A stretch of DNA of 64,000 nt from Tessaracoccus sp. SD287 (GCF_017355265.1 NZ_JADIJQ010000009.1:1-64000); one strand, 5' to 3'. Shown: positions 6,652-60,000, numbered from the stretch's first letter. Program-made: numbers and translations. The notes: a model not told the origin generated them from the sequence alone.

Positions 6652-7463
6652 TCCAGTTCTCCCATGTTGTTGGGCGACTTGTTGGCGCTGATGGCCGTGA
6701 AGGTGGCCTCGCTGGGTGCCTTGAGCTCGTTCGCGTCGACGAAGGCGCCGCGTTCGCTCAGGATCTTCGACACCGAGGTCTCGGCGACGCTGCCGTCAGG
6801 CAGCAGGGCCGGGGCGTGGATGGCGTTGAAGCGTGCGTAGACACCGGAGTTGGGCATCGGGCCGATGTGCTGCCCGTCCTTGGCGTAGGCGGCCATCTTC
6901 TTGGCGGCGGTCTGCTTCTGGTCCAGCTTGGGGATCATCCGCTCACCGTGGGCCAGCACCATCGCACCGACGGCGGCGATGGTGAGCAGCGCGGCCGTGG
7001 CCTCGAAGACCACCACGTAGCGACCGAAGAGCAGGTCGGCCAACGCCTGCACCGACCCGCCGGCGGGCGCGATGGCCGCGTCCAGTCCGACGGGGGCAGC
7101 AGTGACGGCGCGGCCGGCGACGGAGATCACCAGCAGGCCGAAGGCGAGTGCGGCCAGCGTCGAGGCCAGCCGGTGGCCCTTGATGGTCTCGATCACCGAG
7201 TCCGAGGTGTCGACACCGATCAGCATCACGACGAACAGGAACAGCATCATGATGGCGCCCGTGTAGACGATGATCTGGGCGACGAACAGGAACGGCGCGG
7301 CCAGCGACGCGTAGAGGGTCGCCAGGCCGATCATCATGCCGACCAGCCAGACGGCCGAGTGGACGGGCTTGCGGCTGAGCACCATGCCGAGGGCACAGAT
7401 CACCATGATCGGTGCCACGACCCAGAACGCCACCGACTGGGCGCTCGCGAGTGGGAGCAACAT
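6648..7463 (-). CDS. nuoJ: NADH-quinone oxidoreductase subunit J
   Basis: About 271 aa, with five transmembrane helices in the first ~190 residues and the family motif [10 protein letters not shown] followed by the [18 protein letters not shown] segment of the pi-bulge helix. A soluble C-terminal tail of roughly 80 residues follows, longer than in enterobacterial NuoJ but common in Actinobacteria. GTG 7466 and ATG 7463 are adjacent possible starts. I chose ATG, which overlaps the nuoI stop as TGATG with GGGAGG nine bases upstream. Confidence 0.93.
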
Positions 7464-55520: not shown

Positions 55521-56330
55521 TCAGGAACGGACAGCGGCGACCTTGCGGGTGGCCACCACCGCACCCACGGCTGCGATGACGCCCAGCACGCCCAGGCCGA
55601 GCGGCAGGGTGAGGTCGGAGTCGGCAGTGGCGACGCCGGTGTCCGGCATGCCCTTGCCGCCGAGCGCGACCTGCTGGACAGCGAGCTTCAGGTTGTTGCC
55701 CTCGGCAGAGCCCCAGGCGTAGACGATGGTGTTCATGTTCTGGGTCAGGGTGACGTCGGCGGGGCCGATCGCCACGGTGTCGGTGTCGGCCAGGACGACG
55801 TCAGCCGAAACCTTGCCGGGAGCGAGGTCCAGCTTGGCCTCCTTGGGGTTGGTCAGTCCGGGGACCACGACCGTGCCACCGGCGCGGATGTCGACAGCAG
55901 GAGCCGCGGCGAGGTGGCGCACGGTCAACCGCGAGCCCTTGGCCGAGGCGGAGGTGTCATTGGCGAAGGCGGCCAGGGCCGGCTTGCCAGCGGCGTCCAG
56001 GTGGGCCGCCAGGGTCAGGTTGGCGCCGGCGGGGACCTTGAGGCCCTTGGCCTCGATGACGGCGGCACCATCGGCCCCGTCGCCGGCCTTGACGATCTTG
56101 ATGTCGTAGGAACCGGCCGGCAGCATCTGGGGTTCGGTCAGGGTGCCGGGGGCGAAGTTGGTCAACAGCGGCTTGCCGTTGGCCCAGACGTCGACGGTGG
56201 CGTCAGGCACCGCGTGCAGGATGCTGACGGCCGAAGTGTGGTTGTCGGCCTGGGCGGCGGGAGCCGAGAGGCCCACCACGGTGAGCAGGGCTGCGGACAT
56301 CACTGCCGCAGCGCGTCGGATCGTGAACAT
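55521..56330 (-). CDS. Surface-exposed DUF4397-domain protein with sortase-like tail
   Basis: 269 aa. The signal peptide (AAAVMSAALLTVVGLSAPAAQA) ends near residue 28. Two DUF4397-type beta domains follow (VSILHAVPDATVDVWANGKPLL near 33; LTVRHLAAAPAVDIRAGG near 130). The C-terminus has MPDTG, a hydrophobic helix (LPLGLGVLGVIAAVGAVV) and basic ATRKVAAVRS. This is the layout of a sortase signal, although MPDTG departs from LPXTG. ATG 56330 has AGGAGCAACC upstream. It is divergent from the CarH-like regulator and may be its target. Role unknown. Confidence 0.82.
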   Translation of the reverse strand: MFTIRRAAAVMSAALLTVVGLSAPAAQADNHTSAVSILHAVPDATVDVWANGKPLLTNFAPGTLTEPQMLPAGSYDIKIVKAGDGADGAAVIEAKGLKVPAGANLTLAAHLDAAGKPALAAFANDTSASAKGSRLTVRHLAAAPAVDIRAGGTVVVPGLTNPKEAKLDLAPGKVSADVVLADTDTVAIGPADVTLTQNMNTIVYAWGSAEGNNLKLAVQQVALGGKGMPDTGVATADSDLTLPLGLGVLGVIAAVGAVVATRKVAAVRS

Positions 56331-56401
56331 GGTTGCTCCTTCACTGGTGGCGAGGGTCCGAGGAGTTCGGTCCCGGTGCCGGGGGATGTCTCCATGGTGC
56401 G

Positions 56402-56446
56402 GATATCTAGACAGTCCGTCGAGATAACTGGACAGTTTGTATAGGT
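56402..56446. promoter_or_regulatory. Direct-repeat operator region in the carH-like/DUF4397 divergent promoter
   Basis: GATATCTAGACAGT (56402-56415) and GATAACTGGACAGT (56423-56436) are 14-mers with two differences, 21 bp apart, which puts them on the same face of the helix. Each holds a TnnACAG core (TAGACAG, TGGACAG). A weaker TCGAGA sits between them and TATAGG follows at 56440, giving roughly 11-bp steps. CarH-type regulators are known to bind direct repeats of about 11 bp. This is the best candidate for the regulator's own operator. Confidence 0.6.
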
Positions 56447-56496
56447 TTTTGTGAAGATCGACCCGTAGGCGGTTCCGGACGAGGAAGGGATCCACC

Positions 56497-57348
56497 ATGG
56501 CTGAGGCACCTCATTCCATTGGCGACGTGTCGCGGCTGACTGGTCTGGGCATTGCCACGCTGCGCGCCTGGGAGACCCGGTACGAAGTGGTCAGCCCGCA
56601 CCGCAGCGGCAATGGCATCCGCCGCTATGACGACGACCAGGTCGCCCGACTGACGCGCATGCGTGAACTGGTGGAGGCCGGCATCCCGCCGCGCCGGGCC
56701 GCCGCCATGGTCGACTCCTCCAGGCAGAATGAGAACGTGTCACCGCTCCACGACCATGAGGCGCTGCTGCGTGCCCGCACCGAGCGTGGGCAGGTCGAGT
56801 CGTTGCTGTCCGAAACGTTCGCCCTGGCGTCCCTGGAAACGGTCATCGACCAGTGGTTGATGCCCTCCTTGCACCGGGTCGGTGAGGCCTGGTCCACCGG
56901 CCAGATCGACGTGGCCGAGGAGCACCTGATCAGTGCTGCGGTAATGCACCGTCTGGCCGCCACCTTCACCGCTGGTCGGGCCAGCGGCCCCCGGGTGGTG
57001 GTGGGCCTGCCGGCAGGGTCGCGCCATGAGCTGCCCGCGCTCGCGCTGGCCGTCTGCCTGCGTCGCCAGAACGTGGACGTGGTCTACCTGGGCGCCGACG
57101 TCCCGGCGACCAGCTGGCCGGTGGTGCTGCACCGGTTCCGTCCGCCGGCGGCCGTGGTGGGCGTGACAACCCGCGCCGACGTCGGCGCCGCCCAGGCCGC
57201 GGTGCGCTCCTGCGTCGGGGCCGGGACCCCGCACGTGTTCGTCGGCGGCCGCGCCGCCGGCGAGGTCAGCGGCGCGGTGGTGCTGCCCGGCACGCTGTCG
57301 GGGGCAGCCGCGGTGGTGGCCGCCGCCGTCGGCGCCGGCCGACGATGA
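56497..57348 (+). CDS. carH: CarH/LitR-type B12-binding MerR regulator, probable photoreceptor
   Basis: 283 aa. Residues ~7-73 are a MerR winged helix (SIGDVSRLTGLGIATLRAWE, then GIRRYDDDQVARL). Residues ~90-160 form a four-helix bundle with W132-x9-E142-H143, the light-sensing cap signature; Thermus CarH has W131, E141 and H142. The Rossmann-like cobalamin domain follows, with His177 in GSRHELPAL at the position of the lower cobalt ligand, and VDVVYLGADVP. In the dark, adenosylcobalamin-bound CarH tetramers repress; light breaks the Co-C bond and releases DNA. Here the operator-like repeats lie 50-95 nt upstream. The radical SAM and HemY genes are convergent and nearby. Light sensing is inferred from motifs. 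Confidence 0.82.
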   Translation: MAEAPHSIGDVSRLTGLGIATLRAWETRYEVVSPHRSGNGIRRYDDDQVARLTRMRELVEAGIPPRRAAAMVDSSRQNENVSPLHDHEALLRARTERGQVESLLSETFALASLETVIDQWLMPSLHRVGEAWSTGQIDVAEEHLISAAVMHRLAATFTAGRASGPRVVVGLPAGSRHELPALALAVCLRRQNVDVVYLGADVPATSWPVVLHRFRPPAAVVGVTTRADVGAAQAAVRSCVGAGTPHVFVGGRAAGEVSGAVVLPGTLSGAAAVVAAAVGAGRR

Positions 57349-57358
57349 CCCCGCGTGC

Positions 57359-58540
57359 TCAGCCCTGGGACCACCCGGCCGGGACGTGCGGACAGGTGGG
57401 GTCGGAGGCCAACGGGTCACCGGTCAGCGCATAGGCGTGGGACCGGGACCCGCCGCACACGGTGTTGAACTCACACGACCCGCACTTCCCGCCGAACTGG
57501 TCGGGGCGCCGCAGCTTCTTCATGAGGTCGGCGTCGCGGTAGATCTGCCGGAAGGATTCGCGGGTCACGTTGCCGCACACGAAGGGCAGGAACCCGCTGG
57601 GATAGACGTCACCGATGTGGTCGATGAAGGCGAACCCATTGCCGGAGTTCACCGCCATGGGTGCCCGCGGCACCCTGGGCCGCTGCGCGGCGGCGCCGAG
57701 CAGCCCGGTGGTCTGCTCGGTCAGCCAGTGCCACAGCTCGCCGCGCTCGGGCAGCGGCTCACCGGCCTGCCGCAGGGCGTCACGCTGCAGGGCCACCCGG
57801 CGGTACTGGGGTGCCTCGGTGGTCTTGATGGCGATCCGGTCGGAGACGTCGTGCAACCAGTGCAGGACGTCCTCCTTGTCGTGGGGCGACAGCGACTGCA
57901 ACTGGGCCCCGCGGCCGGTCGGGACCAGGAAGAACAGGTACCACATCTTGGCGCCCATGCCGATGACGTCTGCCAGCAGCAGTGGCAGTTCGCGCACGTT
58001 GCCGCGGGTGATGGTGGTGTTGACCTGCAGCCGGAACCCCTCGTCAGTGATCATCCGCGCCGCATTGACGGTGCTGGCGAAGGTGCCCTCGATGCCGCGG
58101 AAGGCGTCGTGGGTGGTGGCGACCGCGCCGTCAAGGGAGACCGACATGGCCTTGCCCCCGGCCTCGTGCAGGGCGGCGACCCGGTCACGGGTGAGTCGGG
58201 GGGTCACCGACGGCGACAGCGACATGGCCAGCCCCGCCCGGCTGCCGTGGCGGACCAGGTCGTCCAGGTCGGACCGTTCGAACGGGTCCCCTCCGGTGAG
58301 GACGACGATGGGCTGGGGCCGCCCGAAGGCGGCGATCTCGTCCAGCAGGGCCTTGCCCTGGGCCGTGGTCAGCTGGTCGGGGTGCGCACGGTGCTGGGCG
58401 TCGGCCCGGCAGTGCCGGCAGACCAGGGCGCAGGCGCGGGTGACCTCCCAGATCACGATGAACGGCCGGTCATGGGGGTCGTGGTGACCCATCCGGACGA
58501 CAGGTCCGCGGTGGGCGGCGGTGGCATGGCTGGTAGTCAT
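57359..58540 (-). CDS. Radical SAM/SPASM protein, heme-pathway type (TIGR04053/AhbD-like)
   Basis: 393 aa. The radical SAM cluster is C37-x3-C41-x2-C44 (ACALVCRHC), followed by VVLTGGDPFER for SAM binding. The C-terminal SPASM region has cysteines in FVCGN, KCGSCEFNTVC and PTCPH, enough for one or two auxiliary clusters. Relatives include AhbD, NirJ and PqqE. AhbD decarboxylates Fe-coproporphyrin III to heme. Overlap with the HemY-type gene by ATGA suggests work on a porphyrin, but peptide modification cannot be excluded. It is convergent with the CarH-like gene, 11 nt away. Confidence 0.8.
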   Translation of the reverse strand: MTTSHATAAHRGPVVRMGHHDPHDRPFIVIWEVTRACALVCRHCRADAQHRAHPDQLTTAQGKALLDEIAAFGRPQPIVVLTGGDPFERSDLDDLVRHGSRAGLAMSLSPSVTPRLTRDRVAALHEAGGKAMSVSLDGAVATTHDAFRGIEGTFASTVNAARMITDEGFRLQVNTTITRGNVRELPLLLADVIGMGAKMWYLFFLVPTGRGAQLQSLSPHDKEDVLHWLHDVSDRIAIKTTEAPQYRRVALQRDALRQAGEPLPERGELWHWLTEQTTGLLGAAAQRPRVPRAPMAVNSGNGFAFIDHIGDVYPSGFLPFVCGNVTRESFRQIYRDADLMKKLRRPDQFGGKCGSCEFNTVCGGSRSHAYALTGDPLASDPTCPHVPAGWSQG

Positions 58541-59889
58541 CTTTCCTCGTCCATGGTGTTGAGTTCGTGGGCTCGGGCCTCGGCGGAGGCAATGGTCGAG
58601 CCCACGCCGATTCCGTCGTAGGGGGCCCCGACCAGCACCACCGGGGGCAGCCCGGCCAGGCCGGCGCGCACCCGGCCGATGCGTTCGCCGTGGCCAACCT
58701 CCAGTTGCGGCATGGCCCCGGGCCAGCGCACCACGCGGCTGTCGGTCACCCCCGCGGGCAGTCCGGCCAGCTCGTGCAGTTCAGCGACCACCTGGCGCAC
58801 GACCTCGGCGTCGGTGAGCCGGGCCAGCTCGTCGTGACCGGCGCGCCCCACCGACGCCCGGACGAGGTGGAGGTCGGGGTGACCCACCTGGGGCCACTTG
58901 CGTGACAGGTTGGTGAACGCCTTGGTCAGGTGGCCGGATCGGGAATGCAGCAGCAACCCGTTGTGTGACTGGAGCACTCCGCCGACCGGCTTCGGGTAGG
59001 CCAGCACGACGGTGGCGACGTCGGCGGTGCGTCCGGCAGCCAACTGCTCGCCGATCCCGGCACGCAGCGGCTCCAGCAGCGCCCCGGCAACCCCGGCCGG
59101 ACAGGCCAGCGCCACCGCGTCGACCCTGTCAACGCCTGCCCGGGTGCGCACCAGCCAGCCGTCGGCCTCGGGGGCCAGTGCCAGCACCGGGGAGTCCAGG
59201 CGCAGGTCCAGACCGAGGACGAGCGCGGCAATGAACTCCTCGAGCCCACAGGGCAACGACCCAAACTGGGCGCCGGCGACCCGGTGGGGTCGTCTGGTCA
59301 GCGGGTTGGGCAGCAGTGAGCGTCCATCCCGGGCCCGGGGCACCAGTTGGCGGGCGGTCGAGCGCAGGGACAGGGAGTCGATGTCGCCCGAGTGCAGGTT
59401 GCCGAGCAGCGGGTCGACGAACTGGTCGGCCACCTCGTCGCCGAACCGGCTGCGGATGAAGGCACCCACGGAGATGTCCTGGTCCACCCGGCGGCGGGCG
59501 AGGATCGGCTCCAGACCGGCGCGGGCCAGCCCACGGACACTCAGGATTCCCGACGAGAGGACGGGGCCGATCCGGGTGGGCCCGACGGGCCCGACCCCCG
59601 CGGGCAGCGGCTGCAGTCCCCTGCGGGTGACCAGCAACGACGCCCCCGGCGAGGCGTGGACGAGGCGCCCGGTGAGTCCGAGGTCGTCCAGCAGGCGACT
59701 GACCGACGGTGTGCCCAGGTGCAGCGCCTCGGCGCCCACGTCGACGGGGCATCCCCACAGCGACAGGGTGCGGACCTGCCCGCCCGGCCGGGACGACGAC
59801 TCCCACACGGTGGTCGCGTGTCCGTCGGCCTGCAGCCTTCGGGCCAGCACCAGACCGGCGATGCCGGCACCCACCACCCCCACGCGCAC
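58537..59889 (-). CDS. hemY: Protoporphyrinogen/coproporphyrinogen oxidase (HemY type)
   Basis: About 450 aa. The FAD site VGVVGAGIAGLVLARRLQADG is at the N-terminus, with ESSSRPGGQVRT after it. FGDEVADQFVDPLLGNLHSGD and a C-terminal LVGAPYDGIGVGSTIASA match the HemY/HemG flavoprotein family. In Actinobacteria such enzymes generally oxidise coproporphyrinogen III in the coproporphyrin-dependent heme route. GTG 59889 is preceded by GGAGGG; GTG 59901 is an alternative adding four residues. No hemH, hemQ or hemE is in the window. It overlaps the radical SAM gene. Confidence 0.87.
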   Translation of the reverse strand: MRVGVVGAGIAGLVLARRLQADGHATTVWESSSRPGGQVRTLSLWGCPVDVGAEALHLGTPSVSRLLDDLGLTGRLVHASPGASLLVTRRGLQPLPAGVGPVGPTRIGPVLSSGILSVRGLARAGLEPILARRRVDQDISVGAFIRSRFGDEVADQFVDPLLGNLHSGDIDSLSLRSTARQLVPRARDGRSLLPNPLTRRPHRVAGAQFGSLPCGLEEFIAALVLGLDLRLDSPVLALAPEADGWLVRTRAGVDRVDAVALACPAGVAGALLEPLRAGIGEQLAAGRTADVATVVLAYPKPVGGVLQSHNGLLLHSRSGHLTKAFTNLSRKWPQVGHPDLHLVRASVGRAGHDELARLTDAEVVRQVVAELHELAGLPAGVTDSRVVRWPGAMPQLEVGHGERIGRVRAGLAGLPPVVLVGAPYDGIGVGSTIASAEARAHELNTMDEER

Positions 59890-60000
59890 GACGCCCTCCA
59901 CTGTTCACCGGCCACGGGCGTGCCGGCTAGGAGACGAGCGTAGGACTGCTGCTGGTCGATGATTTCGGGGGGCAGACCGCTCAGGTCTCGACGCGATGCG

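Follow-up and report, generated by a model that had tools for sequence, protein, structure and literature searches.

Results

The window, by which we mean the whole 64,000-nucleotide stretch of DNA that was analysed, comes from a soil-type actinobacterium and carries on its plus strand an open reading frame of 283 amino acids for a CarH/LitR-type MerR regulator with a cobalamin-binding domain (56497..57348). A divergent promoter of 166 bp separates it from a minus-strand gene for a secreted cell-surface protein of the DUF4397 family (55521..56330; PF14344, 9e-29), whose likely start is 56330 versus 56498 for the longest open reading frame. This protein has a signal peptide and an MPDTG sorting-type C-terminus, and our search of the literature on DUF4397 turned up no link to light or to CarH. 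On the other side of the regulator, two minus-strand genes are convergent with it and encode a TIGR04053 radical SAM/SPASM enzyme (57359..58540; 521 bits versus a cutoff of 395) and a HemY-type protoporphyrinogen/coproporphyrinogen oxidase (58537..59901; TIGR00562 above cutoff). The profile matches confirm the gene neighbourhood as it had been described in the first-pass annotation, but we judge the two convergent genes to lie outside the system.

Their proximity had suggested a porphyrin link, that is, a regulator serving as a light switch for the neighbouring porphyrin or haem steps (hemY and the radical SAM gene). Proximity is the only point in favour of such a switch: the stop codon of the radical SAM gene lies about 10 bp from that of the regulator. 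However, both genes are convergent, no family-type CarH site (described below) precedes hemY, and neither gene is linked to CarH in relatives. We compared 197 genomes of the family, including one congener, Aestuariimicrobium kwangyangense DSM 21549, in which the radical SAM gene is found at 336 kb, CarH at 353 kb and hemY at 529 kb, so that they lie about 16 kb and 176 kb from the congener's CarH/DUF4397 pair. In two further genomes, G020 and G061, hemY and the radical SAM gene adjoin each other away from CarH, as a conserved pair independent of it. We attribute the apparent porphyrin link to chance adjacency; synteny and convergent orientation speak against control of these genes by the regulator, which we rejected as very improbable.

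The regulator gives Pfam matches to MerR_1 and B12-binding_2, with an N-terminal MerR winged helix followed by a C-terminal four-helix bundle and a Rossmann cobalamin domain. Its best NCBIfam model is that of CarH (NF052513, the TransRegCarH equivalog; 132 bits, 2e-38), although the score is below the curated cut-off of 400 bits, so that the protein is not called a CarH equivalog despite this being its top MerR model. CarH of Thermus thermophilus (TtCarH) aligns to residues 5-256 (E = 3e-30), and an AlphaFold2 model built with 37 homologues (mean pLDDT 95.4) has full-length Thermus CarH (5c8d) as its best match among solved structures. A published cobalamin light-response signature consists of GxxW, EH, GxxH and GxxxP (PMC11796333). 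All four elements are present in the regulator as G129-x2-W132, E142-H143, G174-x2-H177 and G199-x3-P203, and include the adenosyl cap W-x9-EH (W132, E142 and H143) and, in the GxxH element, the lower axial ligand His177. W132, E142, H143, H177, G199 and P203 are invariant across the 37 aligned homologues, and the congener regulator has Lys in place of G174. The reading of the protein as a CarH-type photoreceptor is supported by profile, structure model and residue signature. Moreover, an adenosyltransferase (PF01923) is encoded in the genome, and adenosylcobalamin (AdoCbl) can thus be made.

W131, H132, E141, H142 and H177 are the TtCarH counterparts of the residues considered here, and the bis-His feature of TtCarH is absent: Ser133 stands at the position of the upper light-state ligand His132, which makes the dissociation step of the regulator uncertain. 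It could therefore be argued that the protein, while binding AdoCbl, senses cobalamin levels or represses regardless of light, because Ser in place of His132 cannot drive dissociation. In one study, the H132A variant of TtCarH stayed mostly tetrameric in light and His132 was needed for tetramer dissociation (PMC10442372), whereas an earlier report, as quoted in that paper, found that H132A does dissociate. The His132 position also varies among validated light-responsive cobalamin proteins, being Arg in CtMerR, Gln in SasPcob and Tyr in AbDPcob; CtMerR still photolyses, although the monomerising step may differ. Most crt-linked relatives within the family carry Glu, Ala or Gln at this position, which makes the lack of His characteristic of the family rather than evidence of decay. 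A bis-His upper ligand is thus not defining for class I CarH/LitR proteins, and we consider a regulator that only senses cobalamin levels or is blind to light unlikely.

The divergent promoter contains a set of candidate half-sites, which we compared with the literature consensus of CarH operators, nnnnTnnACAn (PMC9304148). On the plus strand, half-site 1 (TATCTAGACAG, 56404..56414; CTAGACA core at 56407-56413) fits this consensus and is followed by an imperfect half-way copy (TCCGTCGAGAT, 56415..56425; one-mismatch TCGAGA at 56419-56424) and by half-site 2 (TAACTGGACAG, 56425..56435; CTGGACA core at 56428-56434). An inverted half-site on the minus strand (ACCTATACAAA, 56436..56446; CTATACA at 56438-56444) comes closer than any other word of the promoter to the operator unit of the family. 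Measured against a tandem 11-bp layout, there are thus two perfect TnnACA words 21 bp apart, one imperfect word between them and one inverted. The 14-mers at 56403-56416 and 56424-56437 are identical at 11 of 14 positions. Since 21 bp corresponds to two 11-bp units minus one base, the perfect copies are out of exact tandem register; the 21-bp pair and half-way copy noted in the first-pass annotation are confirmed. Within the window the exact half-site pair has a single occurrence, and a search of the 3.0-Mb genome likewise gave one instance of the three-element arrangement, with none in the controls. CTNGACA is over-represented in this intergenic region (p ~0.001) and in that of the congener (p = 5e-5). 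A consensus scan detected neither a sigma-70 promoter nor a terminator.

Conservation in the congener marks out a candidate operator block (56391..56453) with a gap-free match to the corresponding intergenic region; the best gap-free 56-mer match has 36 of 56 identical positions, a value reached by none of 2000 shuffles. The congener has CTAGACA at the position aligned with the half-way copy and AGCTAGACAAA at that of the inverted half-site. Its layout differs (CTCGACA, CTAGACA and an inverted CTAGACA), and hence the half-site and the block are conserved in this relative but the 21-bp spacing is not. In the family at large, the operator consists of two tandem 11-mers, CATTAGACAAA-CATTGGACAAA (CATTRGACAAA type), which also fit nnnnTnnACAn. 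A matrix for this operator, learned only from the promoters of other CarH genes, fails on the promoters of both the window (best 22-mer, -4.1) and the congener, so that we base the operator call there on the enrichment of half-sites together with uniqueness and conservation. The DNA-recognition wing of the two regulators reads NGIRRY and SGIRRY, versus GGYRLY in the family, and this changed wing agrees with what appears to be a changed operator.

Half-sites or operators of both types were also seen at photolyase genes. The photolyase promoter in the genome of the window contains a lone genus-type half-site, CTCTCGACAAGGTTTT (L136:100-140), and is a possible further target. In A. kwangyangense, a family-type CarH operator (23.1; L135:629-650) immediately precedes the start of the photolyase gene.

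Homologues of the regulator are present in 64 of the 197 family genomes. Most of them show the usual carotenoid arrangement, with CarH transcribed divergently from an idi-crtE fusion, crtI, crtB and additional genes of the amine-oxidase type. DUF4397 takes this divergent place in the window and in A. kwangyangense. The A. kwangyangense DUF4397 orthologue is 72% identical, occupies the same position beside the regulator and has LPHTG as its sorting-type motif. In a phylogenetic tree the two DUF4397-linked regulators group together (99/94), with the crt-linked CarH of G020 as their next neighbour (99/99), and a second A. kwangyangense CarH, located at crt genes, falls within the main crt clade. 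The placement of both A. kwangyangense proteins makes the DUF4397-linked gene a separate CarH lineage. In the promoter of the G020 CarH gene (L037, ~6700-6868) we observed repeated GCARAAATCT-like words and no family operator, which suggests another change of DNA specificity.

The usual carotenoid arrangement and the crt linkage of the sister lineage in G020 would favour an ordinary carotenoid CarH that acts in trans on an unlinked crt cluster, with DUF4397 as a bystander. However, the crt cluster of this genome, on contig C56, comes with a MarR CrtR-like gene of its own in divergent orientation, as known from Corynebacterium glutamicum (PMC6739363), and the family-type scan found no CarH site there. 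Moreover, the congener has a main-clade CarH at its crt genes and yet retains the DUF4397-linked one. Trans control of crt by the regulator was therefore rejected, and we regard it as very unlikely. A strict pattern search of the whole genome found no family-type tandem site.

The crt cluster itself (L106:4552-14497; contig C56, ~98.5-108.5 kb) also includes an MmpL-like transporter gene and a split lycopene cyclase. The same contig encodes a second CarH-like protein (L035:7679-8581; C56:80720-81577) that has lost the Trp, the Glu-His and His177, and a strong family-type operator (25.8) is located about 160 bp upstream of its gene. This protein may be a CarA-like repressor that works without B12.

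We found DUF4397 homologues in 36 of the 197 family genomes. When the regions upstream of these genes were searched with the family matrix, strong sites appeared in G061 (27.0), G081 (26.1), G083 (25.7) and G109 (20.6 and 19.6), as well as a site of 25.2 in G046 between TspO and an SRPBCC-DUF4397 operon. These five genomes belong to three other genera, and no site scoring at least 19 was found in 5800 shuffled DUF4397 upstream regions. The DUF4397 gene of G061 lies about 3.5 kb from carH, and a photolyase gene is found near the site in G109 and G046. A weaker site (18.6) precedes DUF4397 in G243 (L152), an 8.9-Mb genome from another family of the order. Operators before DUF4397 were found in 5 of 16 genomes with CarH versus 0 of 12 without it (one-sided p = 0.044), a borderline value that makes the overall association of operator and CarH only suggestive, though the single sites are strong. 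An isolated site of 21.4 outside the window, at C66:70879 (L074:10880-10901), among 363,326 null positions indicates that single strong matches can occur outside expected promoters.

Most other DUF4397 genes have an ECF-type promoter, TGCATCC-N15/16-CG(G)AAGTA, and no CarH site; this promoter type is widespread before DUF4397 (L078-L105, L143-L156), with sortase or ECF sigma factor genes nearby. Its use by most DUF4397 relatives could mean that the operator in the window controls only carH and that DUF4397 has an independent promoter, and the half-sites, which lie between both genes, are indeed somewhat closer to the regulator start. Against such autoregulation alone, neither the window nor the congener has the ECF-type motif (TGCATCC-N16-CGAAGTA) in its DUF4397 promoter, and CarH operators are also present before DUF4397 genes that do not adjoin carH. 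We consider it quite unlikely. In G081, G083 and G243, the CarH-type site is located directly before the -35 element of the ECF-type promoter.

Discussion

Our analysis points to a CarH-type AdoCbl/light repressor whose probable targets are its own gene and the DUF4397 gene for a cell-surface protein. We infer from its residues that it binds cobalamin and responds to light, and from comparative genomics and the make-up of the operator that it represses and which genes it acts on. DUF4397 is the most likely target, and the proposal that the operator serves DUF4397 and autoregulation gains support from the linkage kept in the congener and from the CarH-type operators before DUF4397 genes elsewhere. 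In the proposed mechanism, the regulator would bind adenosylcobalamin via His177, with Trp132, Glu142 and His143 capping its adenosyl group. In darkness, an oligomer of the holo-regulator would occupy the half-sites at 56404-56446 and repress both the divergent DUF4397 gene and its own gene. Green or blue light would break the Co-C bond, the regulator would lose its affinity for DNA, and both genes would be expressed. The regulator of this genus is a CarH lineage apart from the main carotenoid clade, with a changed wing and what appears to be a changed operator, and it no longer faces carotenoid genes.

A broader view, which we advance tentatively and consider possible rather than probable, is that across the Propionibacteriales light might gate a cell-envelope module via AdoCbl and CarH. 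This module would comprise the sortase-type DUF4397 protein and, in many relatives, sortase and an ECF sigma factor, and in Aestuariimicrobium a CarH lineage dedicated to this purpose, with an operator code of its own, would have been split off from carotenoid control. To our knowledge, nearly all work on CarH has dealt with it as a carotenoid switch. If our interpretation is correct, the cell envelope is also under the control of B12-based light sensing, through a CarH lineage that is dedicated to a wall-anchored protein and whose wing and operator have changed together. It would also provide a first physiological context, light stress, for the uncharacterised DUF4397 family, near which photolyase and TspO genes are found in relatives. 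Moreover, the lineage would offer an orthogonal CarH/operator pair with a possible use in optogenetics.

Among known systems, CrtR of Corynebacterium, a MarR protein, resembles the type of crt cluster found in the genome of the window but is unrelated to the regulator studied here. The class II LitR proteins of Pseudomonas (PplR/PmlR) belong to the LitR family as well and control photolyase and other non-carotenoid genes; however, they have an incomplete cobalamin domain and partner with LOV proteins (PMC9758184), whereas the regulator of the window has a full cobalamin domain. CarH/LitR of Thermus thermophilus (5c8d, 5c8e) shares with it the domain order, full-length similarity, W-x9-EH, His177 and TnnACA half-sites. 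It differs in having His132 instead of Ser, three tandem 11-mers instead of a 21-bp spacing with an inverted half-site, and carotenoid genes as targets instead of the predicted DUF4397. The crt-linked CarH proteins of other Propionibacteriaceae (such as L036 and L041) are of the same family, with about 40% identity and the same cobalamin residues, but face idi-crtE/crtI, have CATTRGACAAA tandem 11-mers and carry the wing GGYRLY, in contrast to the NGIRRY/SGIRRY wings and nCTNGACAn half-sites of the window and its congener.
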